Origin: Schizophyllum amplum
Taxonomy: Eukaryota; Basidiomycota; Agaricomycetes; Agaricales; Schizophyllaceae
Assembly (NCBI GenBank): GCA_007026445.1
Contig: VDMD01000027.1
Coordinates: 62,001-126,000 of the forward strand
Direction of reading: 5' to 3'
DNA length: 64,000 bases
Shown here: in pieces, positions 6,207 through 59,234 of the stretch
Numbering within the stretch: the stretch's first letter is position 1
Layout of the letters: each line of letters opens with the position of its first letter
Program-made: the position numbers and the translations under genes
Notes under the pieces: generated by a model
What the model was told of the DNA's origin: nothing
The model's database searches: none
What the model saw: only the letters and a program-made list of their open reading frames with translations

Positions 6207-6240
6207 GCGAGAACCTAGATGAGAGCCCCCTGGCAGGCTG

Positions 6241-6365
6241 GCAAGAACGGAAGTTGAGTGGCGGTCCGGACTCCGAAGAATGCAATCAACTTCATAGCCC
6301 CTGATCGGTCTCCTTTAGGAAGCCTTTGTTTTCAAACGGAGGGATAGCAACAGTCAATCTGATTC
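6241..6365 (+). repeat. Left copy of a dispersed repeat, inverted relative to 8185-8310
   Basis: Shares TCCGGACTCCG, ATCAACTTCA, CCTTTAGGAAGCCTTTGTTTT and GCAACAG in the same order with the reverse complement of 8185-8310, with a few small gaps. The right copy has an open frame (VRTPEDINFTATDPSPLG), so the repeat may derive from a coding exon. Confidence 0.65.
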
Positions 6366-8008: not shown

Positions 8009-8949
8009 CCCGCCCCGCTGTTAGTCTGCTGCGTCGTTAGCGCACCGTGTCGAGACAACGCTATTACTTGCCCCAGTCTCCTGCGGCGTGGGGCAGCTTA
8101 TTTATTGACCTGAAAGTAGCTTACTGACTTTACGGTACTTACCCATACCTTGCACGAACACCGCGCGATGCTCTCATGATTCATGAATCCGATGTATTCT
8201 TCTCTGTTGCGAGTCCATCCGTAAAAACAAAGGCTTCCTAAAGGGGATGGATCAGTGGCTGTGAAGTTGATATCCTCCGGAGTCCGGACAACTTCTTGCC
8301 TTCGACCACCATCCAGCCACAATGTTCATTGTCCCTCGAGACTTGTCCGGAATGTCATACTTTTGAGCACGAGTCTGCTCTCTGTATATGTTGCTACTGA
8401 GTAGCGGCCGGCACTGACCTGCGGGCCGCGGTGGGCGGATCTAGTCCAGACACTGACGGGGTCTCAAAGCATCTTCTCTGCGTCGTAGACGCCTTTCACC
8501 GCCCCCGACCTCCTTCCAAACGCTCCGGGAACCTCCCCGCGGATGTTCTCGATTGGGACAGCACGCATGGGCAGAAATGACGTTTGCGCCCATTTCTCCG
8601 TGCTCAAGTTCTCGCGGACGGGCCCGCGTAACTCGTCCTATCCCGCTCGTCCCGACGCCTCTCGACATCGTTCCTCGCAGGTGACTGTTGTCGTCTGGAC
8701 GGATAGGGCTCTACGCGCACGTCGTATACAGTGTGCGCGTTCCTCTCCGACGTTCTTCCCCCGTTTACGCCATCGACCGTAGTGAGTCTAGTCCATAGGC
8801 AGGCTTCTTTCGCTCATGTGGTTCTATGCGGATGCTCCCATGTTGTATTTGACCGCGCGTCAATGCTCTGCTCGCAGCCTACTTAAGCCCAGCATGGCTA
8901 GGCGCAATGGCGCTGAGCCACCTCATCTCCCCCAGCTATAACAAGCACG
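8009..8949. other. Intergenic, holds the right inverted repeat copy
   Basis: No gene seen beyond the repeat at 8185-8310. The last 100 bp before 8950 are probably the promoter of the epimerase gene. Confidence 0.4.
8185..8310 (-). repeat. Right copy of the dispersed repeat, inverted relative to 6241-6365
   Basis: Reverse complement matches 6241-6365 around TAGGAAGCCTTTGTTTT and TCCGGACTCCG. Together the two copies bracket the PLAC8 gene. Confidence 0.65.
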
Positions 8950-11818: not shown

Positions 11819-13048
11819 ATGTCTCCTCGCGCGTCGCTATCATAACAGGTGCCTCTCGAGGCATAGGCCGCGCTGTCGCCCTACAGCTCGCCGACGACGG
11901 TCTCGACTCACATTGAAGACTTGCCACAGATGAAGGACAGCTGGAAGAGGTGCGCCGCGAGATTGAGGCCAAGGCAAGAAGACCCTCATTGTCCTCGGCG
12001 ACGTATCCTTGGAGCCGGATGTCGTGCGCCTAGTCGACGAGACTGTCGAGCACTTTGGTAGACTGGACGTCGTGAGTCGCCTACACCCAAATCTATCCAA
12101 CAGTATAGACTGATACCCATTAGATGATCGCCAATGCCGGGATCGTAATCGCCAAGCCTGTGGTGGAAAGTGCGCGCCCAAAAGCTAGCGCGATCCAGCC
12201 TCGACATACTGACACCTGGCCAGCGAGCGTAGAAGACTGGCATCGCATACACAACATCAACGGTCTCGGCCTCTTCCTCTGCTACAAGCACGCTGCGATC
12301 AAAATGCAACAGCTGGGAAACAAATCGGGCGCATCGTTGGCGCATCCTCAGTCGCTGGCAAATTGGGTACGTATCACCGACGCCCCGTTGTACGTGACAA
12401 CTGACAACCCTTCAACCGAAATTTCAGGCGAACCTTTCGCCGCCGCATACAGCCAGACCAAGTTTGGCGTTCGCGGTCTTACGCAGGCACTCGGTAGCGA
12501 TTTTCCCCATCCTGCGTAGCGCAGTCCTTGACAGCTTCCAAGCCGGCGAACTGGCGAATACGGGCATTACTGTCAACTGCTACTGCCCAGGTGCGTCAAG
12601 GGCGTGTATGGTATGTGACGGGCTTCCGACTTATGCACTTCAGGCGCAATCGACACGATCATGCGTAAGCCGTCTTCCATAGCGGGTCTTACCTAGTGAC
12701 TTACTGCTCATCCAGTCCGCGAGCTAGCTGAAGGTGCTGGTGGTGTCGACCCATTCTATGCTAAAGTACGTGTCCCATTCTATTCTTCTATCGTATAGAC
12801 TAATGCGGCCACAGGAGAAAGACAAGATTCTAGTAGGACGTCTCGGAACGCCGGAGGATATCTCGAACGTAGTCTCCTTCCTCGTATCGCCAAAGTCACA
12901 ATTCATTACGGGTGCGTTCCATCCTTGCTTGTCATTTGACCAACTGAATCGGTTACCGCAGGACAATCAGTACGTGTCTCCGTATCTTGGAGAACGAAGA
13001 CTGACGGACAAACAGATGCACGCAAACGGTGGACGGGTCATGGATTGA
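11819..13048 (+). pseudogene. SDR oxidoreductase, acetoin/diacetyl-reductase type, copy 1 (frameshifted)
   Basis: Spliced pieces match copy 2 throughout: IITGASRGIGRAVALQLADD, VLGDVSLEPDVVRLVDETVE, MIANAGIVIAKPVVES, DWHRIHNINGLGLFLCYKH, YSQTKFGVRGLTQAL, GELANTGITVNCYCPG, AIDTIMLRELAEGAGG, VGRLGTPEDISNVVSFLV, and the terminal HANGGRVMD. The TGxxxGxG cofactor site and YxxxK catalytic pair are present. One-base losses appear just after the ATG (codons 3-4), again in the stretch after DDGLD, and before IVGASSVAGK (about 12330), so no intact frame exists. Known members reduce diacetyl or acetoin with NAD(H). I read it as a decaying tandem copy, unless the assembly has indels. Confidence 0.75.
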
Positions 13049-13587
13049 ACTGCGCATCCGACGCGGTTGTAAAAATACTTCTTTGGTACTTCAGTCTTCA
13101 CTCTCTGTCCTGGTGCTTATCGCAGTCGAGCTTTCAAACCTCCCAGTCGCGGTCCGCACCGATGCTCTTGACTGTCGTCATGATTATCGATTCCATTCCA
13201 GTGGGAATTGCTCACCACGTTTCTTCCCACATCATCGCCTATTATTCCTCCATAGGTAACTTCAGCAGGCCCGCAGTCAATCCTTGTGGTTCGTGAGAGG
13301 CCGATACCACCCAAGAGATGGATCATCAACCCTCGTGCGCTCTTCATGTTCAGATCGGGCACCTCGTTTCGCCCACTGACCGCACCACATTCACGCTTCC
13401 TTGATCGTGCAGATAGACCTGAGGCTGAGATGTAGTCTCGCCATCATTTTCCTGCGGACGACGATGCATCCATTGATCTCCGGCTTCAAGACCTCCGTGC
13501 CCGTCGTGGACAGATGATATGCCTTATATGCGAACACTCACGGCACCTGAGGCTGTGCACGCCCTTTCCCTTCCTACGTTCATCATC

Positions 13588-14863
13588 ATGTCTTCTTCGC
13601 GCGTCGCAATCGTAACGGGTGCCGGTCGTGGCATAGGCGCGCCATTGCTCTCCAGCTCGCCGACGACGGCCTCGACATTACGCTGTACGACCTGCCGCAT
13701 ATGAAAGATCACCTGGAGGGGGTGCGCCAAGAGGTCGAGGCGAAGGGCAGGAAGGCTCTTATCGTTCTCGGCGACGTGTCGTCTGAGCCGGACGTTATAC
13801 GCCTGGTCGACGAGACGGCCGAGCATTTTGGAAGACTGGACGCTGTGAGTTGCCGCTGCTTATATGTTAGCAGGGACTATCGAAGTGCTTACCTCGCGCC
13901 AGATGATCGCCAATGCGGGGATCATGTTTTCCAAGCCTCTGGTAGAAAGTACGTGCCTCAGAGCTAGGGAATCTTCGCGCTCCTTGCACTGACATCCTAA
14001 TCTGCAGCGACTGTAGAAGAATGGCACCACGTACACAAGATCAACGGTCTCGGCCTCTTCCTCTGCTATAAGCACGCTGCAATCAAGATGCAACAGCTAG
14101 GGACCGAAAGCGGACGCATAGTAGGCGCGTCTTCCGTCGCTGGTAAAGTCGGTACGTATCTCTAGCTCAGAGTCCCGCATAGCATGCAGCCACTCAGCTG
14201 ATGTTTACTAGGCGAACCATTCTGTGCTACATACAGCCAGACCAAGTTCGGTGTTCGTGGTCTAACGCAGGCGCTCGGTAAGGACGGTGATTGTCCTGCA
14301 AGCGGTCGTGGTCGCTAACAGCTTACAAGCGGGCGAATTGGCTAACACAGGCATCACTGTCAACTGTTATTGCCCAGGTGCGTCAAGGGAATATACAGTG
14401 CGCGGCATGGTTTCTTACACATCCCTCGGATTCTAGGTGCAATAGACACCAACCTACGTGAGGCGTCCCTTTTGTCAGGTCTCGCGCCTCGTGACTGACT
14501 GCATTGCCTCCCGTACAGTTCGCGAGCTAGGCGAAGGTACTGGCGACAAAGACAAGCTCTATGCCGATGTACGCGTCCAAGTACTTTCACCTTTCGGGGA
14601 AATTGACTTCAATCATTCTAGGAAAAGAACAAGACAATGGTAGGACGTCTCGGGACGCCCGAGGATATCTCGAACGTCGTTTCGTTCCTCGTGTCGCCCA
14701 AGTCGCAGTTCATCACGGGTGCGTTGGCTCGTTTGGTTGGTTTTCATTGACCGCACATCTGAACCGACTTTTGCAGGACAATCGGTACGTAGGTTTGCAT
14801 GTCGTGGAACAGGAATTGACGCATGGACAGATACACGCAAATGGTGGACGGGTCATGGAATGA
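13588..14863 (+). pseudogene. SDR oxidoreductase, acetoin/diacetyl-reductase type, copy 2 (one frameshift)
   Basis: Ten exons by splice logic: 13588-13844, 13903-13948, 14008-14151, 14212-14277, 14330-14377, 14437-14457, 14519-14568, 14622-14718, 14777-14784, 14831-14863. Key parts: MSSSRVAIVTGAGRGIG, LYDLPHMKDHLEGVRQ, MIANAGIMFSKPLVE, GLGLFLCYKHAAIKMQQLG, GRIVGASSVAGKVGEPF, YSQTKFGVRGLTQAL (catalytic Tyr/Lys) and VGRLGTPEDISNVVSFLV. Everything is in frame except one missing base directly after the Gly motif (about 13640, GGCATAGGCGCGCC where copy 1 has GGCATAGGCCGCGC). That would abolish the protein. With only this lesion, a sequencing error or allele is quite possible. 10 exons for about 255 aa is very exon-dense. 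Confidence 0.78.
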
Positions 14864-15075
14864 ACGGGGTCGTCTAGGCTGTACTTACTGTACTTACTTA
14901 TAGGAGCCAGGGCGTCATAAGCGTTCTTCGAAGCTGGAATACTCCTGCGCAGTACTCTGATGAAGCCGGCGAGGTATGGTGTGTATACCAGATGATATCT
15001 GGCCATAGTACTCGCGAGGTCTAGCTGCCGAGTTCAGTGAATGGTGGCAGACAGACTGTATTAGTTCGTCGTATA

Positions 15076-19583: not shown

Positions 19584-21526
19584 TCACGCCCCCCAACCAC
19601 TGCGACTGTTGGAGCGCCCCTTCTTCGGCATCCTCAAGATCTCGCGATACACACGCTTCATCTTGCTCATCCTCCGCTCCTCCTGGCTATGCACCTCGCG
19701 CTCGACCGCCTCGCGCGTCTGCTTCGCCGCATGGTACGTCTCCATCGCGCGCTGGAACTCGCCCAGCGCGACGCTCTCCTTCATCCGCGCGACCTCGAGC
19801 TTGCGCCGCGCGTTTTTCAAGTCGTCCTCCTCGTCGCTGAGCGACTCCGACTCGACGGTGACGCCCTGCTCGGAGCCGGAGCCGCCGTCGGTGGGGTCGG
19901 AGCCCCCTCCATCGGTCGGGTCAGAGCCGTCCGTGGCGTCGGATGTGCGTTGCGCGTGTGGGGTGTTCGTGCGCACGTAGAGATAGGATGATGACCGGGG
20001 GTGGCTGGCAGAGGCAGTGGTGGAGCTGCAGAGGATGTCAGGAGCAGCGACAGGGGTGACACGTCCCACTCACGCGAGAGAGACCGCCGTAGGGCTTCCT
20101 GAGGCGATGTCTGCCGTTGCCGCACGTCTGGCCATCTGCGAGGCCGACCGCGCCTCCGGCCTGACGATAGGTATGCGCATCGGCGCCGTGCCTTCGCCCG
20201 TGCGTCCCTCGCCGTCCTGCCTGACGTGAGACGGCCGCCTGCTAGACGGTCGTCCTGGATAGTCGCCGTCGAACTCGTCGAACGCGAACACATCGTACTC
20301 GTCCTCATTGATCACCTGGAAGGAAGCATTGTTCGCGGAAGACGACATCGACGCCGTGCGCGTGCGTGTCGGTGGCTGTGTCGGCGGTGGCGCGGACCGG
20401 CCATTGGTGGATGAAGCGACCTTGGCGCTGGACGAGGCTGAGACGGTGCGGCCGTTCGGCGCGAGGGAGCGCGCGAAGGATTGGTAGGGTGTGTTGCTGC
20501 GGGATGCGGTGGAGTTGGCTCGTGGCCTGCCGAGACGGCGCTGCTGCTCCAGTAAGTAATCTTGTTCGGGGGAGATGGATGGTGTCCAGATCTTGTGGTC
20601 GACAGACGAGCGGCTCTCGGGTCGATGCGAGGATGGGCGGGGGGAGTCTGGCGATCGAGTCGATCAGGACTTGGATGAGTGACGCAGCACGGGGAACTCA
20701 CGATACGAGGGGTTATGCCGCTGGGAGTAGCTGATCCCGCGGCGATGGCTGTCCTGAAAACTGCCCGAGTGCGTGTAGGAGTGGCCGCCGCCGTCCCCGC
20801 CGCCGGTCAAGCGCGCCATGCGTCGTTCCTCGCGCTCTCTTTGAATCTCGGCCTCGATCTGCTCCTCCCTGATCGTCCTGAGATGCGCGATGCTGTCGTC
20901 GAAGACCTCCTGCACGAGATTGCGCTCCAAGTCAGACCCGGCGTTCTTCAGGCCCAGCTCGCGGTCGAGGTAAGCCTCTTGTGCGAGCGAATCGAGGTCC
21001 TTTTGCACGCGCTCGCGCAGCTCCGCTTTCCACGCATCATCTGGCTCAAACTCCGCGTTCGGCTGCTGCATGGCGCGTGCGATAAGGGGGAAGGGGACAG
21101 CTGGCGAGCGCAGACGGTTATGTGGGCCGAGTAGGAGGATGCCAGCAGGCTAGTACTGGGATGGCGCCGTGACCAGCATGCAGTCGTGACGAAAGTCGGA
21201 CGCCGATAGCACGGTTGTGCGAGCCGGACAAACACGACGCGGACACGTGTGTGGAAGGTGTCTGGTCTCCCCGGGTGAGCGTGAATGAAGGCGATCGACT
21301 GATGATAGATGCACCGTGCTCAACAGCAGCGATGCTGGCGGTGGCGCGGATGCGTTTCCCATGGCACCTTCGCTCCTCCTCCTCGGTTCTATCTTGGGGT
21401 CGGACGTGCCGCATGGCTGGCAGCTGGCTTACACGATCGTCAGGAAGCGACGACACTGGGGCGTGCGCTACCCGTACTCATGATGTTCGTGCGACGACGA
21501 CGGCGGCGAGAAGGAACGTGTGCGTC
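19579..21526 (+). repeat. Segmental duplication, copy A
   Basis: Nearly identical, base for base, to 32461-34433 in direct orientation 12.9 kb away. Differences seen: 9 bp extra in A near 19605, scattered substitutions, one base less in B near 33118, and a ~21-bp insertion in B near 34040. Similarity fades after about 21526/34433. Confidence 0.93.
19584..21071 (-). CDS. Coiled-coil protein of unknown function, duplicated gene copy A
   Basis: Exons (minus strand): 21071-20702, 20647-20074, 20025-19584, in phase. About 460 aa. The N-terminal charged helix region (MQQPNAEFEPDDAWKAELRE, then DDSIAHLRTIREEQIEAEIQ) is followed by a Ser/Arg/Pro-rich disordered middle (SFARSLAPNGRTVSASSSAK), an acidic patch (FQVINEDEYDVFAFDEFDGD), tandem GSDPTDGGGSDPTDGG, and a C-terminal helix with KNARRKLEVARMKESVALGE and RRMSKMKRVYREILRMPKKG. 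The start PDDAWK..LRE resembles PDDEWKRRLRR in the gene at 59235-61265, so the two may be distant relatives, but the C-terminal domain seen there is absent here. Function unknown. Confidence 0.78.
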
Positions 21527-32460: not shown

Positions 32461-34433
32461 CGTTCACGCCCCCCAACCACTGGACGGCCCCTTCTTCGGC
32501 ATCCTCAAGATCTCGCGATACACGCGCTTCATCTTGCTCATCCTCCGCTCCTCCTGGCTATGCACCTCGCGCTCGACCGCCTCGCGCGTCTGCTTCGCCG
32601 CGTGATACGTCTCCATCGCGCGCTGGAATTCGCCCAGCGCGACGCTCTCCTTCATCCGCGCGACCTCGAGCTTGCGCCGCGCGTTTTTCAAGTCGTCCTC
32701 CTCGTCGCTGAGCGACTCCGACTCGACGGTGACGCCCTGCTCGGAGCCGGAGCCGCCGTCGGTGGGGTCGGAGCCCCCTCCATCGGTCGGGTCAGAGCCG
32801 TCCGTGGCGTCGGATGTGCGTTGCGCGTGTGGGGTGTTCGTGCGCACGTAGAGATAGGATGATGACCGGGGGTGGCTGGCAGAGGCAGTGGTGGAGCTGC
32901 AGAGGATGTCAGGAGCAGCTGGTAGGGGTGACATGTTCCACTCACGCAAGCGAGACTGCCGTAGGGCTTCCTGAGGCGATGTCTGCCGTTGCCGCGCGTC
33001 TGGCCATCTGCGAGGCCGACCGCGCCTCCGGCCTGACAATAGGTATGCGCATCGGCGCCGTGCCTTCGCCCGTGCGTCCCTCGCCGTCCTGCCTGACGTG
33101 AGACGGCCGCCTGCTAGAGGCCGTCCCGGATAGTCGCCGTCGAACTCGTCGAACGCGAACACATCGTACTCGTCCTCGTTGATCACCTGGAAGGAAGCAT
33201 TGTTCGCGGAAGACGACATCGACGCCGTGCGCGTGCGTGTCGGTGGCTGTGTTGGCGGTGGCGCGGACCGGCCATTGGTGGATGAAGCGACCTTGGCGCT
33301 GGACGAGGCTGAGACGGTGCGGCCGTTCGGCGCGAGGGAGCGCGCGAAGGATTGGTAGGGTGTGTTGCTGCGGGATGCAGTGGAGTTGGCTCGTGGCCTG
33401 CCGAGACGGCGCTGCTGCTCCAGTAAGTAATCTTGTTCGGGGGAGATGGATGGTGTCCAGATCTTGTGGTCGACAGACGAGCGGCTCTCGGGTCGATGCG
33501 AGGATGGGCGGGGGGAGTCTGGCGATCGAGTCGATCAGGACTTGGATGAGTGACGCAGCACGGGGAACTCACGATACGAGGGGTTATGCCGCTGGGAGTA
33601 GCTGATCCCGCGGCGATGGCTGTCCTGAAAACTGCCCGAGTGCGTGTAGGAGTGGCCGCCGCCGTCCCCGCCGCCGGTCAAGCGCGCCATGCGTCGTTCC
33701 TCGCGCTCCCTTTGAATCTCGGCCTCGATCTGCTCCTCCCTGATCGTCCTGAGATGCGCGATGCTGTCGTCGAAGACCTCCTGCACGAGATTGCGCTCCA
33801 AGTCAGACCCGGCGTTCTTCAGGCCCAGCTCGCGGTCGAGGTAAGCCTCTTGTGCGAGCGAGTCGAGGTCCTTTTGCACGCGCTCGCGCAGCTCCGCTTT
33901 CCACGCATCATCTGGCTCAAACTCCGCGTTCGGCTGCTGCATGGCGCGTGCGATAAGGGGGAAGGGGACAGCTGGCGAGCGCAGACGGTTATGTGGGCCG
34001 AGTAGGAGGATGCCAGCAGGCTAGCACTGCGATGGCGCCTATTAGACCCCACGGCGCACCGTGACCACCATGCAGTCGTGACGAAAGTCGGACGCCGATA
34101 GCACGGTTGTGCGAGCCGGACAAACACGACGCGGACACGTGTGTGGAAGGTGTCTGGTCTCCCCGGGTGAGCGTGAATGAAGGCGATCGACTGATGATAG
34201 ATGCACCGTGCTCAACAGCAGCGATGCTGGCGGTGGCGCGGATGCGTTTCCCATGGCACCTTCGCTCCTCCTCGGTTCTATCTTGGGGTCGGACGTGCCG
34301 CATGGCTGGCAGCTGGCTTACACGCTCCTGTATGCCAGGAAGCGAAGACACCGGGGAGGCGAGGAGCACGGTGAGCTACCCGTACTCATGATGTTCGGGC
34401 GATGGCGACGGTGGAAGGAACGTGTCCGTCGCC
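32461..34433 (+). repeat. Segmental duplication, copy B
   Basis: Direct copy of 19579-21526 (see there). The left breakpoint is sharp (CGTTCACGCCCCCCAACCA in both) and lies about 130 bp after the telomere-like motifs. Confidence 0.93.
32464..33942 (-). CDS. Coiled-coil protein, duplicated gene copy B (altered reading frame in the middle)
   Basis: Exon 1 (33942-33573) and the start of exon 2 (from 33518) match copy A. Near 33118 a base is missing relative to A (after DGDYPGRP), which shifts the frame. The shifted frame stays open (LAGGRLTSGRTARDARAK...) and runs straight through what is intron 2 in A. There the intron is 49 bp rather than 48, so the frame is restored at exon 3 (STTASASHPRSSSYLYVR). 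One continuous frame therefore reaches the normal stop. About 95 residues, including the segment with the MRIPIVRPEA motif of copy A, are replaced by unrelated Arg/Ala-rich sequence. It may be a dead copy or a protein with a new middle. Confidence 0.6.
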
Positions 34434-49149: not shown

Positions 49150-52045
49150 GATGACGATGACTGTACCGCGGACGGTGGTGGTGGTGTCGCTGTCTTCGCG
49201 GGTATAGTTTAGAGATAAAGTAAGAAGCAGGGAATCGCTGCGCCCGTCGGCGGCGCTTGAAGTGCGCGCTCGTGAGATGAAAGTTCTGGTCAACAGGTAT
49301 AGCTTCTAAAAATTTCGTCAATGAGGTATAGACCGAGATTGGCATCAGGACCGGCCTCGTGTAGACGACGCCGCCTCGTGCACCAGAAACGCAGTCTCGC
49401 GTGTGCTGATGGGTGCTGATTCCTTCTCCCCGTAATCGATCCGGGATCTGAATGCTGTTGAGGGAGCTGCTGCCTGGTGTACTTGTGCAGTTTTATGCGC
49501 GCTGGACGGCGACGACGATGGCAAGAGCCAAGTTAGCTGGCATTAATTGTGCTGATGCCACGAGATAAGAGCCCCGCCATCATTTCCCCTCTGCCCAGTT
49601 GCTGATGGCGGGGAGTCTGCGTTCCCCTCTGCCCTACGCGATATTCCGCATTTCTCCTCGCTGGCACCCTTTGCCCTGGTCACAGTCCCGCGCCCCACCC
49701 GCACAGGTGCCTCTTTGTGATACATTCTCTCGACGAGACACATGATTATGCCCTCCAATACAGCTGATTCGAACCGCAACCGACCTCTCTCCTGCCACGA
49801 AACGTGCGAGTTGGCATTGACGAAGTGACCACAAACAGGGCACGTGATGTTGAAGTTGATGTTCGGTCACGCCAAAACGGTCTTGCTTATGAACTCGTTT
49901 CGCAGGATGCACCCATTAATCTCGACGAGCACACAATCCGACAGCTCACTTCGCTTAGTAGACCGCGTCGTGATCACTGCTGTCGACGCATGCAGTCGCA
50001 TATGTAAGAACGCCAGCAATCCATCGACGGGATGGGTGAGAGCGACGAGACCGTCCACGTCTACTGCCGACCGCGGCCGCGCGCTTTCATGCATAATCCA
50101 CTGGCCCAGGAACAGTCAGCTCACTGCGGAACGTTCGTTTATTTGCGGAACATTGTTACGTTTGCGCTACGTGAGCACGGACGCTTTGTATCCCAATAAG
50201 GAAGGACTTGTGTCCCCGTGAGGGCGAAGCTGGTAGGCATCGGCCGAACCGCGCCTGCGGGAGTAGCCCGGTCCTAGAACATTGTACGCTTGCGTAAGTA
50301 TTATTCTCCAAAATGTATGGCCGAGGTACGAGAAGGCTCACCAGTTGGGTAGTCAAGGAAGCGGGGGTCAGAAAGCGGGACCGTGGGACGCGCCGGACAA
50401 GAGTCGGATCCCAAAGCACGGTCGGCGCTGACAGTATCGGGATTAAATCCAGTAATCTCGCGACCATCAGCGTCGTGTAGCCAGAGGAGGCTAAAGGCAG
50501 TAGTTCCTGTGTAGTGGCGAGGATGGCCACGGCCCGTCGTGCTTGACCGCGACCGCGCGGCGGACCGCCCTCGACGAAAGCCCGGGGAGGGTATTCATTT
50601 CGGAACCAGAACGCTGCTGATGGGTCGAAGGCGCGCTGAACCATAATTGGCCGGTCGCGGGTAGGCGTGCCATGGGTATGGCAATCCACGGCAGCCAAGC
50701 ACCGATCGGGCGGGACAAAGCTTGCGACATGTCGCCGCGCGAAGGGTCCCTGCTGTCGGCGCAGTCAAGCAATCGTGTCGCACGGCCGCGCTGCTAGACA
50801 CGCATCGTACGCTTGCCGTAGACCTCGGGTTCGATGGCCGTGGTACGCGCATAAATGTAGGGAATTCTTTCTTCGGCGTCCCGCATCCAAGTGCACAAAA
50901 TAGTCTCGTGAATGTCTAAAGCGGCCCGCGGGCCACAAATTCCGCTGCTAAGGTGCTTCCTGAAGAGGAAGATCGCGCCAATCAGTTCACATCTGCCGTA
51001 ATGGATGGGGGTCGATGGGGGACGTTACGACCAGTTTCCCAACTATAGGTGGGAATGATGACGACAAACATTGCCTTTGCGCCACACGCCACACCGGTGG
51101 GACGATGTAGGCTGATGTTGGTTGATACTTCGAATCGTCTTGCAGGCACGGAAGACGCGACGGATCAGAGAGGGAAGGATGACGTTGGCACACGAGCAGC
51201 AAAGAGCCTTCGACTGGCCTATCGGAGGCCGCTCTCGCATGATTTCGCAGAGGGTGCCCGTGTATGCCGCGATCCTGGTGTATAGTCTGAGCGGGTAGTC
51301 CCGGGTCGATGGGAATCCAAGCCTATCGACGTGGGAACAGTCTAGACATGTCCGTTATAGTGCGCCACCTCCCACGTATTGAGATCGTCAAAAAGGCCGG
51401 CGGTCTGTAGCAACGGAGTTCCACAGAGGACGGGGGTGGGGTATTGCGGGGTAAAGCATTGCGTGGATGGCTAGGAAATTTATGAGCACCGCAAAAATTG
51501 TCACAAAGACTTCTGAGAGAAGACGCACTCACTAGATCGCTCAAACGACCGGAGAATGAGCGAGACCTGCAGAAAAAGAATCAGTTGAAGCAAGTCGAGG
51601 AAGGGATGCGAGCGGGAACAGGTACGCGGACTCGCGCGGCATGAATTCATAGCCTGAGCATCGGGCCCTGGAAGAGTTCATGAAGGTCTCCTTCCGCAAG
51701 ATAGAATTCAGTAGACACCGCGAAGCAAGGCGATCTAGAAGACCGAAGACCCATCGCACAATTGCTGAGCACGCCACCCTATCTCGTCGCTACCTCAGCC
51801 CCGTCGAGAAGTTCACCTCATGTCCATCCATGAGTGCGAGCGATACCGGGCCGGCCAAATCACGTCGACACCGAACCCTCTAAGTTCGTCCGCGTGAGGA
51901 GGCCGCGTCCGCGTCGGATATGTGTGCCACATATAGTCAGCCTGTTCCAGCGTCGATCGGAGACGCGTCCCAGGGTTCATATGAGAGTCCATAGCACCGC
52001 ATAGCACGGTCGTAGGCGGAGTCTCCCTTAGACTCGTCCCCGTCA
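49150..52045. other. Intergenic, no gene recognised
   Basis: No coding sequence with splice logic or family features was found on either strand. It is the left flank of the transposon at 52054. Confidence 0.4.
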
Positions 52046-52053
52046 GCGTCGAC
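52046..52053 (+). repeat. 8-bp target-site duplication, left copy
   Basis: GCGTCGAC directly abuts the left terminal repeat. The identical octamer abuts the right end at 56770-56777. Confidence 0.85.
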
Positions 52054-52171
52054 CAAGGGGTGGTCGATCTCGGAATCGGGCATAGAAGTATGCTCGCGTG
52101 CGCGCTCCACGCCGAGCCATCGGCACGCCGGCAGTTTCGGCAGGCGTGCGGGGCTGTGACGCCTCGTCACG
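52054..52171 (+). repeat. Left terminal inverted repeat, 118 bp
   Basis: Starts CAAGGGGTGGTCGATCTCGG. Matches the reverse complement of 56652-56769 at 115 of 118 positions by eye, without gaps. All three differences are C/T or G/A transitions at the inner end. Contains small hairpins (GCCGA-GCCA-TCGGC; GTGACG-CCT-CGTCAC). Confidence 0.93.
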
Positions 52172-52262
52172 ACCTCTTCTCTGTCGTCATCACCTACTTT
52201 CACCGCCGAGTCGCTCACCAACCGCTTGCTTTACCCACTGCGCGCAAGCGCAATTGCCCGCC

Positions 52263-55200
52263 GTGAATCCCTACAATGTCAACTACCCTGTAAATAATGT
52301 ATTAAACCCGTTCTCGCAACAATCGAGCTTGCCCGGTCCACGCACACCTCTTGCCGGTGCTTATGGACACGGGTTTCGCTCCCCTCTCGCTGCTTACCCT
52401 CCGGCTGCCTTCTTCAATCATGCACCCCTTCCTCCTCCGCCCTTTCCGTTTTCTCTACAACGACCTGCGCAACCTGCATGCCCGGGTGTGCGTCTTGGTT
52501 GGGATCCGTCGACGTTCTATACGTCGTATCCCTTCCCCGAGCACGTCGAGGGCCATAAACCGAACCCGGGCTACTATCTGAAGGAGATTGGACGTGATCC
52601 ATCTCTGGTCACCATCGCCGCGGACCGCTGCCTTGGAGTCGCTTCCGAGCACGGAGGACCGTGCAAGCGATGCGCTAATCTCTCAGCTGCTGTCGAGTCA
52701 ATGAAGCATCGAGCGACGTACGTTCAAGGCGGAAGGCTAGCAACTCGCTCGCATGCAACATTGGTACAGAACCTCAAGGATGCGCAAGCTAAAATTGAGG
52801 CTCTAGAGCTCAAAGTAAGTGCGAAAGCGTAGATACAATGCATTGTGGCACCAAACTCACTTGTCCCCAGGTATGCAACCTCGAAAGTTCCACCTCAGCG
52901 GAAACTATTGCCAAATGGAAGCAACTCTATGGGTTGATGGCGAGGAACGAGGTTCCCGCGCTTCAGCGGCTCCTCGCGACTGCGTACAAAGAGGAAGTCG
53001 GTATCGACGGCCTTCTCTCGCGCGTACAGCTGGCGATAGATGGCAAGTACCGCCCGAAGAACTATACGCGCAACGACATCGACATAGGGATGACGTTGTA
53101 TGAGTTCGGAGGTGCTGGTGCTGTCCATGCCGCGCATAACTCGCATCTCGCACTACCAGCCCTCAAAACCCTGCGCAAATATCGGCAGGACTTCACGTTG
53201 CACGCCTCTACCGAGCAGTCAGACATCATCGGCGACGCAGGTGACAATATCGAGGTCCAATTCGCCCCGCGGGATGATGCTCCTCCTCGCGTGCGCGTCG
53301 GACACTCCTTGGCTGTTGACGAGATGGCGGGGGATGGGCGCGTCTGTTATATCTGCAAGAAGGACGCCATCGGGGGACTTTGTCGGGAGCACTCGGGGAA
53401 TCTCAGCTCTGTGCGAGTAGGCGACGATCTTGCCAACTCTATGGAAGCTGCCGAGGCCGTCAAACAAGGCAAGGTGCATATCGGGAAGGAGTTTACCTGC
53501 GCCGCGATTCTGCCACATTCGAGGACGAACTATGGGGCTCGGCCAATCATCATTTCCCCGACATGCAAGCACGGCCTCGTCTCTGACAGCGTTCAGCTGC
53601 TTATGTCTGGTATCCGCGCTTGGCAACTCTCACCCTTCGGAGAGCGCGCGTCAGGACCGCTCTGGTATCTCACGTCGGACGGTGATGCCACACGACGCAA
53701 TGCCATGTACAAAATCTGCATGCGCAAACCACTTGATCCCAAAGGCGAGCTGTACCGACGCCTTCGCGGCTGCGTGGGCCTGAATTTGTGGGTCGGAGAG
53801 GGTGATTTGACGATGGATTTCGACTACAAACACATCTTCAAGCGTGAGTATTGTGCCGATTTGTCATGTACCATGCTGTTTTGCTTACTCAGTACAGGTA
53901 TCTGTACTCTTCTCTGCTCGAAGGATGGCCTCTCTATTGACAAGGTCGTCATCAACAAGGAGCTTCTCTCTATATGGCTGGAGAAACTCACAGGTTACGA
54001 CTGGTCGGAGGCCAGCATCCACGCTCTGCTTCACCCGAAGGACGCACAAGACGTGCCTCGCGCGATCAAGCTTCTGTCACGAGTCGCCGAACTACGACAT
54101 CTCGATACGTCCACCTTCACACCCAGTGAGAAGAACACCCACCGAGTCCTTTCGCTGCTTGGCGAAGCGCTCCACTCGCTGCTTGAGCCGTTCATCAACC
54201 CCGACATGGACCTACCGGAGCAGGTGACGCACCTCGTCAAGGCGTCGCATCTATTCTGCGCGCTCTACTCCCATCACGGCGGCACGGCATTCATGCCCAA
54301 CCAGCTGTATGCAGACATTCAGTGCATGATCAAGAACGCGGTCTTCTGTGTCGCGAAGTCGCAGGTCCTCGATCCCGAACTCGACGTGTACATCTGCCTT
54401 CTCGGTGATGACCAGCTTGAGAAGCTCTTCGGCCGTGTCCGCATGCTTGGAGGGCACTCGCCAAACGTCGATGTGTCGGAGATGGTGACGCGCTGCCGTG
54501 GGGCGCTGAATCTGGCCGACATTTTCAGCAGGCAGCCGCAGTACGAGCGTGAGCCGGAGCGCCTCAGGATGCATCGGTCGAGGGACTACGACCACCTCAG
54601 CCCGCGCGACTGGAATCGAAGAGGAACCAACGTTACCGGGAAGTATTGCAACCTCGAGCTATGCTGGCGGAAGGGCGTTATTCTGGCCACCGGAGTGCTG
54701 CGTCGGCTTGGAGTTGTCGTCAACTTCGCGGCAATGTTTAGGGCGCACGATCACGATCTCATGCGACCCAAAGGCGGCGACTATCCAGGAGTCTCCAAGG
54801 ACATCGACCGATCTCTCGCCGAATCGGAAGCAGCGGAGTCATCCAGCGCGGCCGGTGAACTAGCGTCGCAGAGCGAGGAGGCGACGTCAGATGTGCAGGC
54901 AGTAGAAGCGGCCCTCACTCACGCGTGGACACGCTTGCAGGCGCGTACAGCAGTCGAGCATTCGGTGTGGATGAAGCTTGATGAGGCCGGCCGCGAGCGC
55001 CACAAAACTTCCATCCTTCGGGAAGTCTTCGATTTAACGCACGACATTGACTATCACAAGACGCACGACCGCATCCTGCGCATCCGCTGTTTCTCCATCG
55101 GAGGCGACAGCTGGGATCGCACCACTGGGCTGAAGCAGGGGAAGGATCTACCGTCCGAAGAGCGCTTCGAGATCGGTGATCTATTTGCTACTCTAGTTCG

Positions 55201-56529
55201 CCTGCGATCTGGCCAGGTCTCGCTAGCTATCGCGCAATGCACGGGCATCAAGACCAGTGACTCGAAATCATTAGCTGGGGCGCCTCGCGCTGAAATCGCG
55301 CTCACCGACTCTGCCTACACCATCTCCGGCCAGACGCTGGCCCTCCAACCTTTCCGCGACGACGAAGGCGAGATACGATGGGCGTGGGATCGCTCTTTCG
55401 TCGCGTTCGAAGCCGTCAAAACACGACAGTCCACCGTCCCGCTCGACGCGTCCGCCGTGATTAAGAAGGGGCAGCTCGTGCTCAACACCCCGTCATCACT
55501 CGTCATCCCTCTTCGAGATGAAGCCGAGAGCGCCACTGTCCCTGCGGAAGTCCTTGGCAGCGTCGATGAGACATGGGTGCTGAGTGAGTCCACTATGGCC
55601 AACCTTCGGCAAAGGCTGTGGGCGCGTATTTGCAAGCCGGACAGTCAATTAAGGGAGCGGGTGGCGACCTACGGAGCCGTACTTGCTGGTAGCTTCCCCT
55701 ATTGCGGCTCTTCGACGAAAGGTGAGCCGCTCTTGTTACTCTATGTACGCCGCATATCTGATGTGATCCTAGAAGATGCCATAAGCGCGTCCCACATCGC
55801 TGGCGTTATCGAGAGGGCCAGTACTAAAGACGAACAACGTCTGCCGTGTCGTGTTTGTGGCCAAAACGTGAGCGGTCCGGACAGACAGACGCACATGGGC
55901 AAGCACATATTCCTCGCGAGCACTGGGCAGCCCGACGAGTCAGCAACGGAAGCACCGGTAAGCTCGACTCCAACTCAACTCTATGGCTAGTCCTTCGTCG
56001 TCTTCTGACCTCAATACAGGTATCCCGTGCTTACCCATGCGGGTTTTGCGGTGGCCCGTCGCGTACCGAGCAACAGGACGGCTGCTCTGTAGGATTCGGA
56101 GCGAAGAATACGGCAGTTTCAACATGCTCTCAAGCACATTCCTTCATGATCAAGTCTGCTGCGAAAGCGAGCAGAGCGAAGCCATGCACGAACGTGCCGA
56201 TGCGCTGCAGGCTCTGCCCGATGATCCAGTGGAAATACAATATGTCCACTCACCTGAGGGAACGTCATCCGGGCTGGAAGCCGCGCGACGTGGTGGACGA
56301 CGAGTTCGTCAAGGCACTCACCATTTCCGAGCAGGAAGCAACGGAGCTGCCATTGTTTGGCAAGGCAACTGCTCAGGGTAAGGGATCTAGTAGGCTGAAG
56401 AGACGACGGTCGCCTTCGCCTTCGGTAGAGGAGGCCACTGCGAGATCTGCCAAGCAGCCAAAGACGGCGCATATTAGCTCTTTTGCACCTCCTGCTGACG
56501 CTTGGGACCCGTGGAGTAGTCATTTGTAG
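52263..56529 (+). CDS. P-element/THAP9-like transposase with C-terminal zinc fingers
   Basis: Exons: about 52263-52814, 52871-53843, 53898-55721, 55773-55957, 56020-56529. The start is unclear: the first exon is open from the inverted repeat but has no early in-frame ATG, so a short upstream exon (ATG 52090 inside the repeat?) or a non-AUG start is needed. Domains: Pro/aromatic N-region; Cys cluster DRCLGVASEHGGPCKRC; coiled coil (LVQNLKDAQAKIEALELK). Candidate RNase H-fold residues: Asp in AVDEMAGDGRVCY (53318), Asp in TSDGDATRRNAMY (53678), Asp and His in DFDYKHIFKR (53822), and Glu in GDDQLEKLFGRVRMLGGHSP (54419). The last matches the D.LE.fFg.iR..GG pattern of P transposases. The ~175-residue DYKH-Glu insert sits where P elements carry their GTP-binding domain. 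C-terminus: CRVCGQN...H...H, YPCGFCGG and CRLCPMIQWKYNMSTHLRER zinc fingers, then a basic segment (LKRRRSPSPSVEEA). Confidence 0.75.
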
Positions 56530-56651
56530 CGCCTCCAATTATTACATAGCTATATACAAAATTATCACTGGCTGGGAATACAGGCTTCCTACTAGCATTG
56601 GCATGGCCACAATGACGCGCGGGACGTACGAAAACGAACAACGGACCCGAG

Positions 56652-56769
56652 CGTGATGAAGCGTCACAGCCCCGCATGCCTGCCGAAACTGCCGGCGTGC
56701 CGATGGCTCGGCGTGGAGCGCGCACGCGAGCATACTTCTATGCCCGATTCCGAGATCGACCACCCCTTG
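56652..56769 (-). repeat. Right terminal inverted repeat, 118 bp
   Basis: Reverse complement of the left repeat with three transitions. Ends CCACCCCTTG immediately before the right octamer. Confidence 0.93.
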
Positions 56770-56777
56770 GCGTCGAC
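56770..56777 (+). repeat. 8-bp target-site duplication, right copy
   Basis: GCGTCGAC, identical to 52046-52053. Confidence 0.85.
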
Positions 56778-59234
56778 GAGCCTGCCTCAATCCGAGGGGC
56801 GGGATTCCGGGCCGATCATGTGTTTATTGATGTTGGGGTCTATTTATGCGAGGGAGGCGAGGCTCGCCGAGCGACTGGGGCAAACGGCCGAGATTTTGGC
56901 GGGCGGCTCCTGGCGTGACCCGGACTTAGAAAAATCAGCCATCGCGTCGACCACCCGCGACCAAAATTGTCCACTGTGTGCGCTGCTGTCGTCCCCCTCA
57001 CTCGAAAATGGTACCGCCTGGCAGGCAATGTCTGCAGTAAATGGAATTGGAACTCATACATAACAATATAAGAGTAGTGGCATATACCAAGCCAAATTCG
57101 GCTCAAATGTGCGAGTTGGCCCAAGATCCATTGTAGCCTCGCACCAGCACATCCTACATTGCACCTGGGGGCCCTATACACATATAGTGGCTCTTCAGTA
57201 CCGAATATCATGCATCGAAGAAGGACTCACGAAGCTTGACCATGCTGCACGAGGAAGTACAAGGTAAGTTGAGCCTACGAAAACACATTCGTCGCAGCAG
57301 GGACTTATGGGACACAATCCAAAGAGTGCACACGAGAGAGAGAACCAGATGTGATGGGCGTAGGGACCGTAGAAACACGTCAGACTGCGGGACGGCCTTA
57401 GGTGAAGTGTTGTTGTGCGAGATATGGGTGTCGGCGTGCCGAGGACCGTGTTCAGTGGCGCACAGTGAGCACATGCATTGAGTCGTAGTGTATGTGAGTC
57501 GCCGTCGTTCGTCGCGAGAGACAGACACGCCGCTGGAGGAGCGAGAGTTGTAATCAGAGATGGGTGAGAGCCTGGTGCACCGTTGTGATCGTGAAGGAAG
57601 ATGTTGGCGTTATGAGCACCCCAGTGCAGCGTTGTTGGTATTTCTAGTGGCTTGGTGAATACACGGCCTATCTTGCAGCCCAGAACGCCCCCCGCATATG
57701 GACGGGATGACGGTAACAACAAGACGGGACCGGCCTCTGAGATGTCGCGGCTGCGCTCCCTCGGCTTAGCCTTTCTCCCTTAGTCTGCAGTGTGATATGA
57801 GCATCGTCCAAGACGTGCAACACGACGACGCACCGGTCAACACGCTTCTCATGCTTCATCGTCATATCAGCGGCGAGCGCGGTCGCCTGGCCCGCGCGCA
57901 ATGCGTCACCGAACACCGATTCGCAGCCCGAAAGTGGCCAGAGGGGATCGGATAGCGCACATAAGCACCTCTGCTGAGACTGCTGATATTGCCAACGGGG
58001 GGAAGGTACAGAGAGCGAGTCAGAGGTTGGTAAGAGGTAACAGCGAAGGCAGTCGTCGAAATCTTTCTAAGTCCGAGTCACGCTTTACGTGACCCTGCCA
58101 TGTGACGGCCCGTTCATCCCAGCCGCTTCGCTGCACTCAGCTTGCCTCTGACGTCAGCGAAGCGGTTGGTCGAGCCTAAGTCTCCCTCGCTGCGACGGCG
58201 ACAATCCTGAGTGTGGCGGAGATGAGGCGCAACCAACGGCCGGCGACCAAGGCGAAGCAGAAAGCGTCTCGCCTGTATTGTCATTTTGAGGGCTGTGCGG
58301 CAGAGTATGCAGGAGCCGGCGGCAGCGCAGAGGTGAGCCGAGGGCGCAGGAAGGATTGCGGTCGCGCGCATGGAACTGGGATAAGCGAGATGAAGGGGTC
58401 GGCTTGGGCGGTGATGGGTTGAGCGCTGCTTAGCCTTTGACGTAGGGATGCATGAGCAATGAGTTTGAAGTCGGACAATAAGACGTGTTGTACAGTGCGA
58501 CTTGACGTCGTCAGCCGCGAATACTCGTTCATACGACGGTGGCCGTGAACTGTATCATTCGGTGATATCATTGTGAGGAAACGCACCCGTAAGCTCACGC
58601 AGCGCAATGTCAGAGCTTGTTGCATCGCGGCGTGTAGGCCGACAGTAAGCATACAGTTCCAAGGTTCAGATGCATACGAGGAAGTTCGGGACAAGCCGGG
58701 CGTGAGAAACGTTGTTACTATTTGTTGTTGTTTATCAAACGTTGAGAAATTCGGATGTTCTGTGTGAGTCATCTCGTTCTTCCTCTGGCAAGCCAAGATG
58801 TTTCTCATAGATAGGATCTATGTTCGAACGCCGCCGCTCCTAGGTCCTTTCGATGCGCAAGCCAATGCATAGGGCGATTCCTCAGGGGTTCAACAGATAA
58901 ACGCGAACTTGAAGCTTCGACTGCAAAGTCATTACATGGTACGTACTTCATATCTAACAGCGAGCATAAGTAGATCCAGGCGGCCTGCCACCAAAAACAC
59001 CGTACGGGAAACGCATTACTACTACTATAGCTGCAGGACGGCGGTGACTAGATAGAGATACACAAGTAGCGTAGGGCGGAGATCCAAACTATATGGAGGT
59101 CTTGTAAAGGTATATCAACTGGGAGAGATCATACAACAGCCACAGCCCAAGCACCACACCTTCCACAACCGGCAACGAAAACGAACATAGATAACATCAT
59201 CACTCAACCTCAGCCAGCACCCAACGTCAACGCA
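56778..59234. other. Intergenic, no gene recognised
   Basis: Right flank of the transposon. Short frames only; none carries family features or consistent splice sites. Confidence 0.4.

Follow-up and report, generated by a model that had tools for sequence, protein, structure and literature searches.

A probable autonomous P-superfamily DNA transposon inserted in a dispersed repeat of the mushroom Schizophyllum amplum

The P element of Drosophila is described as having inverted ends of 31 bp, 8-bp target-site duplications (TSDs), internally deleted copies and a transposase of 751 aa, in which a DDE-type RNase H fold carries its residues in the order D-D-[C/D]xxH-E, with an LPxxxT motif upstream and a helical insertion before the Glu (PDB 6p5a/6pe2; PMC7776569). 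The THAP9 and P-like elements of zebrafish and human have the same RNase H signature string, and the zebrafish element has 8-bp TSDs (PMC8230255, PMC7776569). P-superfamily elements are already known in fungi: excerpts of the literature report P-1_PSt and P-1, P-2, P-N1 and P-N2_MLP from rust fungi as 'previously unknown in any Dikarya' (PMC3164196), and the RepeatMasker label 'P-Fungi' stands in tables for Pleurotus ostreatus, Phakopsora and Daphnia (PMC12387193, PMC6136362, PMC8594854). Here we analysed a window of 64,000 nt from the genome of Schizophyllum amplum (contig VDMD01000027.1, positions 62,001 to 126,000, forward strand) and describe within it an apparently intact element of 4,716 bp that, in this wood-rotting mushroom, is distantly related to the P element of the fruit fly. 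We are highly confident that it represents an autonomous DNA transposon of the cut-and-paste type, belonging to the P superfamily and lying inside a dispersed genomic repeat.

The features listed above for the Drosophila element and its transposase recur in the S. amplum element, which differs in having ends of 118 bp, a protein of about 1,275-1,346 aa without a detected THAP domain, four of eight GTP contacts without a conserved counterpart, and an added strand-rich domain and C-terminal Cys/His clusters. It shares the signature string and TSD length with the zebrafish and human systems, but these are described as animal and THAP-bearing, with zebrafish ends of 13 bp. With the rust elements, compared by description only, it shares the superfamily and a basidiomycete host, and Melampsora likewise has autonomous and non-autonomous copies with 8-bp TSDs. 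The 'P-Fungi' entry of P. ostreatus, likened here by label and size only, comprises 10 copies and 46,557 bp, with a mean near the size of our element. Among the matches listed in a search of the open-licence literature, no title or abstract dealt with a P-like family from mushrooms. We place the S. amplum element in the P superfamily as a new member that falls outside the animal P/THAP9 clade.

A preliminary description of this locus, made from the sequence alone, had claimed 118-bp terminal inverted repeats (TIRs) with three mismatches and a flanking octamer, and we reproduced its coordinates and counts exactly. The left TIR aligns gap-free to the reverse complement of the right one, with 115 of the 118 positions matching (mismatches at positions 93, 110 and 113), and the octamer GCGTCGAC lies directly outside both. 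A repeat search returned the pair as 119 nt at 97%, because the adjacent outer base pair matches too. As a yardstick of significance we used the margin over other inverted pairs rather than a formal chance probability: the second-best pair within 51500-57400 was 28 nt at 75%, and the 64-kb window held only two other pairs of at least 40 nt (107 nt at 75% and 48 nt at 90%).

The sequence surrounding the element allowed the site to be compared with its uninterrupted form. The right flank, from 56770 onward, is repetitive, with 15 other matches in the 49.65-Mb assembly, and the 700 bp to the left matched only themselves because only the final 25 bp belong to the host repeat. In the window, these 25 bp stop at 52053; the remainder of the repeat follows from 56770, opening with a second copy of the octamer. 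All seven host-repeat copies inspected (the best 7 of the 15 other matches) are uninterrupted and read TAGACTCGTCCCCGTCA - GCGTCG[A/G]C - GAGCCTGC with a single octamer, which is exactly GCGTCGAC in one and GCGTCGGC in six. These copies are natural empty sites for the element, of the kind that the preliminary description had proposed to look for. The host repeat itself starts TAGACTCGTCCCCGTCAGCGTCG; its 5' boundary is identical in the seven inspected copies and the 3' ends of the matches vary.

A search of the genome for further copies, likewise proposed in the preliminary description, recovered five more elements with paired ends, of 688, 688, 336, 327 and 337 bp. Each is flanked by a perfect TSD, no two of them alike (ACCGTCTA, CATGTCCA, GCCTGCAG, ACCGAGAC and ACTGCCCA), so that an 8-bp duplication flanks each of the six elements with paired ends; the six duplicated octamers show little self-complementarity. 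The short elements terminate at CAAG[G/A]GGTGG, as the 4,716-bp element does, their ends are 82-84% identical to its ends, and the 688-bp pair shares a 66-bp internal piece (77%) with it. The common terminus of these five relatives and the single octamer in the seven uninterrupted host repeats independently confirm the boundaries of the element, and the claim of a cut-and-paste insertion agrees with the TIRs, TSD, empty sites and short relatives alike. Alignment of the 12 ends showed invariant blocks at positions 1-4, 6-16, 21-27, 38-47 and 51-57, which are likely candidates for transposase contact sites. The two 688-bp copies share 681 of their 688 bases, and the copies of 336 and 327 bp are identical over all 327 aligned bases, a closeness that points to recent movement of the short-element group. 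A solo end on contig C17 and a 49-bp fragment on C179 were also found. The family is of low copy number in the S. amplum assembly, the copy numbers from this search being lower bounds.

The single internal gene is a spliced open frame of five exons and four GT-AG introns, and its product is 1,275 aa long from the first conserved Cys, or 1,346 aa when counted from an NPYNV segment, the latter in line with an earlier estimate of about 1,350 aa. The final 1,254 aa are identical to those of the public model P0001 (Schizophyllum amplum BD626DRAFT_633076), which starts at 52420-52485 in another frame (MHPFLLRPFRFLYNDLRNLHAR) and is without the CPGVRLGW segment that relatives have. A protein search that scored 7,997 candidates gave 73 clusters at E ≤0.001, including the window protein. 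An organism was named for 67 of these, the other six being unnamed metagenome or source entries; no rust fungus occurs among the 67, whose genera we take to belong without exception to the Agaricomycetes. Of the 87 relatives found, 25 were placed in a tree, in which the window protein groups with two S. commune proteins (support 100/100). Schizophyllum and Mycena each contain separate lineages, a pattern that would fit old, persisting transposon lineages.

Homology of this protein to the P family was detectable only when profile was compared with profile. Against a reference of 34 proteins, picked from 120 listed in a homolog search with the Drosophila P transposase, hhalign gave 98.3% (E 1.1e-14), and a further alignment, headed by the window's own frame, gave 98.5% (3.2e-15); as controls, reversed alignments reached 0.8 and 1.1%, and none of 12 column shuffles exceeded 1.0%. 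The P-element transposase was also the best structural match to the predicted structure of a Mycena homolog, and this match includes the helical insertion domain. Both the RNase H fold and the profile comparison had been named beforehand as ways to check the idea, and both came out in favour of the P family.

Duplications of 8 bp and long inverted repeats are not restricted to P elements. The element might thus belong to another superfamily (hAT, KDZ/Zisupton or MULE) and resemble P through a shared RNase H fold only, and Transib, RAG1 and Hermes do appear among the structural matches. Their Z scores (10.9, 9.6 and 8.0) are, however, far below that of P, and the profile match extends over the LPxxxT region ahead of the RNase H fold. 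Moreover, in a Pfam scan of 29 members of the family, which returned 22 Pfam families at E ≤1, none was from the hAT, KDZ or MULE groups: neither the KDZ family PF18758, nor the hAT C-terminal dimerisation domain PF05699, nor the MULE/MuDR family PF10551 was among them, and their matches in the genome (77, 17 and 6, respectively) lie elsewhere, none being on contig C190. In hhalign, local KDZ, MULE and hAT sets (8, 4 and 6 sequences) gave 0.1%, which is a weak control since these sets also scored 0.1% against the P family. We consider membership of another superfamily very improbable.

The residues expected of a P-type catalytic core could be placed along the protein, here numbered as in P0001, with conservation counted in 29 aligned rows. 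D263, D383, D431, D609 and E612 align to D230, D303, D339, D528 and E531 of the P element, of which D230, D303 and E531 are described as the catalytic triad and D339 as part of a [C/D](2)H motif following strand 5 (PMC8230255). The preliminary description had pointed to DEMAGD, DYKH and DDQLEKLFGRVRMLGG motifs, and all three are present in the translated gene, the first as DEMAGDG; since D431 aligns to D339, the Asp of DYKH is not the second catalytic Asp, a role that passes to D383 in SDGD. The spacing between D431 and E612 is 181 residues, compared with 192 in P, and that between D263 and D383 is 120, compared with 73. Nine of 13 columns that are invariant in the P alignment are kept. Together, these residues give the protein the signature of D, D, [C/D]xxH and E, borne on an RNase H fold that is taken from the homolog model.

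Several results weigh against reading this locus as an autonomous P-type transposon. The other four P-invariant columns (W266, R348, S409 and N447) are not kept, and the good full-length structure model is that of the Mycena homolog, which is 46% identical to the window protein. Precomputed Pfam annotation was empty for all 73 clusters. The only transposase family in the 29-member scan was PF21789 (TNP-like_RNaseH_C), at E 0.093 in one member, and a PF21789 search of the S. amplum genome gave no match; the lowest E value in that scan, 0.00056, belonged to IcmR (bacterial protein middle region) in two of the 29 members, which we take as a chance match. Other Pfam and NCBIfam scans of the protein returned only matches below cut-off, one scan of four proteins returned none at all, and phmmer and hmmsearch against PDB sequences found no transposase. 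These scans left the protein without a family assignment, and profile-profile comparison was required. In addition, upstream of the conserved N-terminus the frame stays open as far as the preceding stop and holds no in-frame ATG, a single full-length copy was found in the genome, and ends only 82-84% identical to those of the short relatives mean that a sister element may have mobilised these.

Some of these points would also suit a P-type element that is now a dead copy, with ends and frame that look intact and no functional transposase made: no in-frame ATG was seen upstream, the public model begins in another frame, only one full-length copy was found, and the other genomic relatives are without detectable ends. 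Four other genome regions encode such relatives, on C294, on C113 and two on C279, and catalytic residues are kept wherever the matches cover them. A search for inverted repeats around these regions found none that convincingly enclosed a relative, the pairs at C279:55000-64900 (78 nt at 86%) and C279:19500-29400 (63 nt at 76%) leaving the relative outside; a search for short repeats with 8-bp TSDs gave only pairs with 3 mismatches in 12, as it did in a positive-control window. Stops were counted in the relatives at C294, C279:24754 and C279:59599. The relative at C113:315500-325400 (30% identical) keeps D263, D383, D431 and E612 in stop-free matched pieces, inverted repeats looked for around it were not found, and it may be either an old copy or a gene adopted by the host. 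Against a dead copy in the window, its 1,275 codons form an open frame over five exons that retains every motif and Cys/His position, the start could lie on a short upstream exon, and related short copies moved recently. We therefore regard a dead copy as rather unlikely, if a prospect to be taken seriously.

Under the preferred reading of an autonomous P-type transposon, the one gene would encode a DDE transposase whose RNase H fold (D263, D383, E612) is split by the helical insertion domain. By homology, its helical N-terminal region, probably aided by the C-terminal Cys/His clusters, would bind and pair the 118-bp ends, and the RNase H site would release the element and attach its 3' ends to the target at two points 8 bp apart; repair of the gaps would then produce the 8-bp duplication. 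The DNA displays the products expected of such a reaction, whose steps are put forward by homology. The 4,716-bp copy may by these means still be mobile.

The insertion domain is where the mushroom protein appears to depart from the fly enzyme. Eight GTP-contact residues of the P transposase are listed in PMC7776569. V401 is conserved in all 29 rows, and at D528 26 rows have D, two have N and one has a gap; D444 is D in 12 and E in eight, and F443 is F in 12, the window protein having H and L at these two positions. K385 has no aligned partner, K400 is replaced by D/N and N447 by L/V/I in all 29 rows, and S409 is S in four. Because the profile alignment is least certain here, the loss of GTP binding stands as a prediction. 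The protein might instead work as the animal P transposase does, with a GTP cofactor in its insertion domain, which is co-located with that of P, overlays it in the fold match and keeps or partly keeps four contacts; given that K385, K400, N447 and S409 are without a conserved counterpart and that the window protein has H and L, we find this unlikely. THAP was absent from the 22 Pfam families, the N-terminus of the window protein not being fully defined, and fungi are described as lacking THAP domains (PMC7776569). Twelve Cys/His positions at the C-terminus, in three clusters, are at least 90% conserved; these read as the three zinc fingers noted earlier, without confirmation by Pfam. The P-element/THAP9 plan proposed for the protein held for the catalytic core; no THAP domain was detected, and four of the eight GTP contacts are without a conserved partner. 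We tentatively suggest, at somewhat less than even confidence, that a mushroom branch of P kept the RNase H core and helical insertion domain, lost the GTP pocket, and has C-terminal zinc fingers and a strand-rich domain in place of THAP.

Elsewhere in the window, direct duplicates of about 1.9 kb lie at 19610-21506 and 32481-34414, 12.87 kb apart, in six pieces 89-99% identical, five of them 96-99%. A tandem duplicate at 12122-13050 and 13901-14865 (pieces 73-87% identical) contains, by eye, a short-chain dehydrogenase-like gene. An imperfect inverted repeat (6240-6340 and 8218-8320; 48-nt core, 90%) surrounds a Cys-rich gene, of which a 57-aa piece gave a PLAC8 match (E 3.5e-06) that falls short of the curated cut-off.

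Table 1. Coordinates of the element, its gene and its host repeat within the window
Feature	Position	Strand	Basis or remark
Host repeat start (TAGACTCGTCCCCGTCAGCGTCGAC)	52029..52053	+	100% over 25 bp to C280 copy; TAGACTCGTCCCCGTCA common to 7/7 inspected copies
Left 8-bp TSD GCGTCGAC	52046..52053	.	Direct comparison; single octamer in 7/7 inspected empty sites
Left 118-bp TIR, starts CAAGGGGTGGTCGATC	52054..52171	+	Repeat comparison; terminus common to 5 short copies
Transposase gene, first conserved Cys (CPGVRLGW) to stop	52479..56529	+	Last 1,254 aa identical to P0001
Intron 1, 56 nt, GT-AG	52815..52870	+	Gene model
LPALKT motif, helical region before RNase H fold; Pro and Thr align to P-element P187, T191	53153..53170	+	Profile alignment
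D263 codon, first catalytic Asp (P-element D230)	53318..53320	+	D in 29/29 rows; strand 1 of homolog model
D383 codon (TSDGD), second catalytic Asp (P-element D303)	53678..53680	+	D in 29/29 rows; right after strand 4, homolog model
D431-Y-K-H434, [C/D]xxH motif (P-element D339)	53822..53833	+	D431: D in 21/29, gap in 8; right after strand 5, homolog model
Helical insertion domain (approximate), at place of P-element GTP-binding domain; contains intron 2	53834..54406	+	Profile alignment, homolog model, fold match
Intron 2, 54 nt, GT-AG	53844..53897	+	Gene model
E612 codon (DDQLEKLFGRVR), catalytic Glu (P-element E531)	54419..54421	+	E in 28/29 rows, gap in 1
Strand-rich accessory domain	55163..55720	+	Predicted model residues 201-386; weak fold matches only
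Intron 3, 51 nt, GT-AG	55722..55772	+	Gene model
Cys/His cluster 1, C1071-C1074-H1086-H1090, reads as zinc finger	55847..55906	+	≥90% conserved, 29 rows
Intron 4, 62 nt, GT-AG	55958..56019	+	Gene model
Four-Cys cluster, C1114-C1117-C1129-C1143	56038..56127	+	≥90% conserved, 29 rows
Cys/His cluster 3, C1170-C1173-H1185-H1190, reads as zinc finger	56206..56268	+	≥90% conserved, 29 rows
Right 118-bp TIR	56652..56769	-	Repeat comparison
Right 8-bp TSD GCGTCGAC	56770..56777	.	Direct comparison
Host repeat remainder	56770..58178	+	99.0% over 1,409 bp to uninterrupted C280 copy

These findings give a concrete function to a fungal protein family without a functional name, as the preliminary description had anticipated for these orphan agaricomycete proteins: 72 further clusters join the element's transposase. 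They also make available an entire element, together with its ends, its duplications, natural empty sites and short derivatives, as ready material for an excision assay. As several of the residues that contact GTP in the fly transposase are seemingly missing from the insertion domain, the mushroom protein offers a natural test of the need of P for GTP. If the pocket has indeed been lost, the use of GTP, which is described as unique to the P transposase among transposases and integrases, would characterise the animal branch and not the superfamily as a whole.

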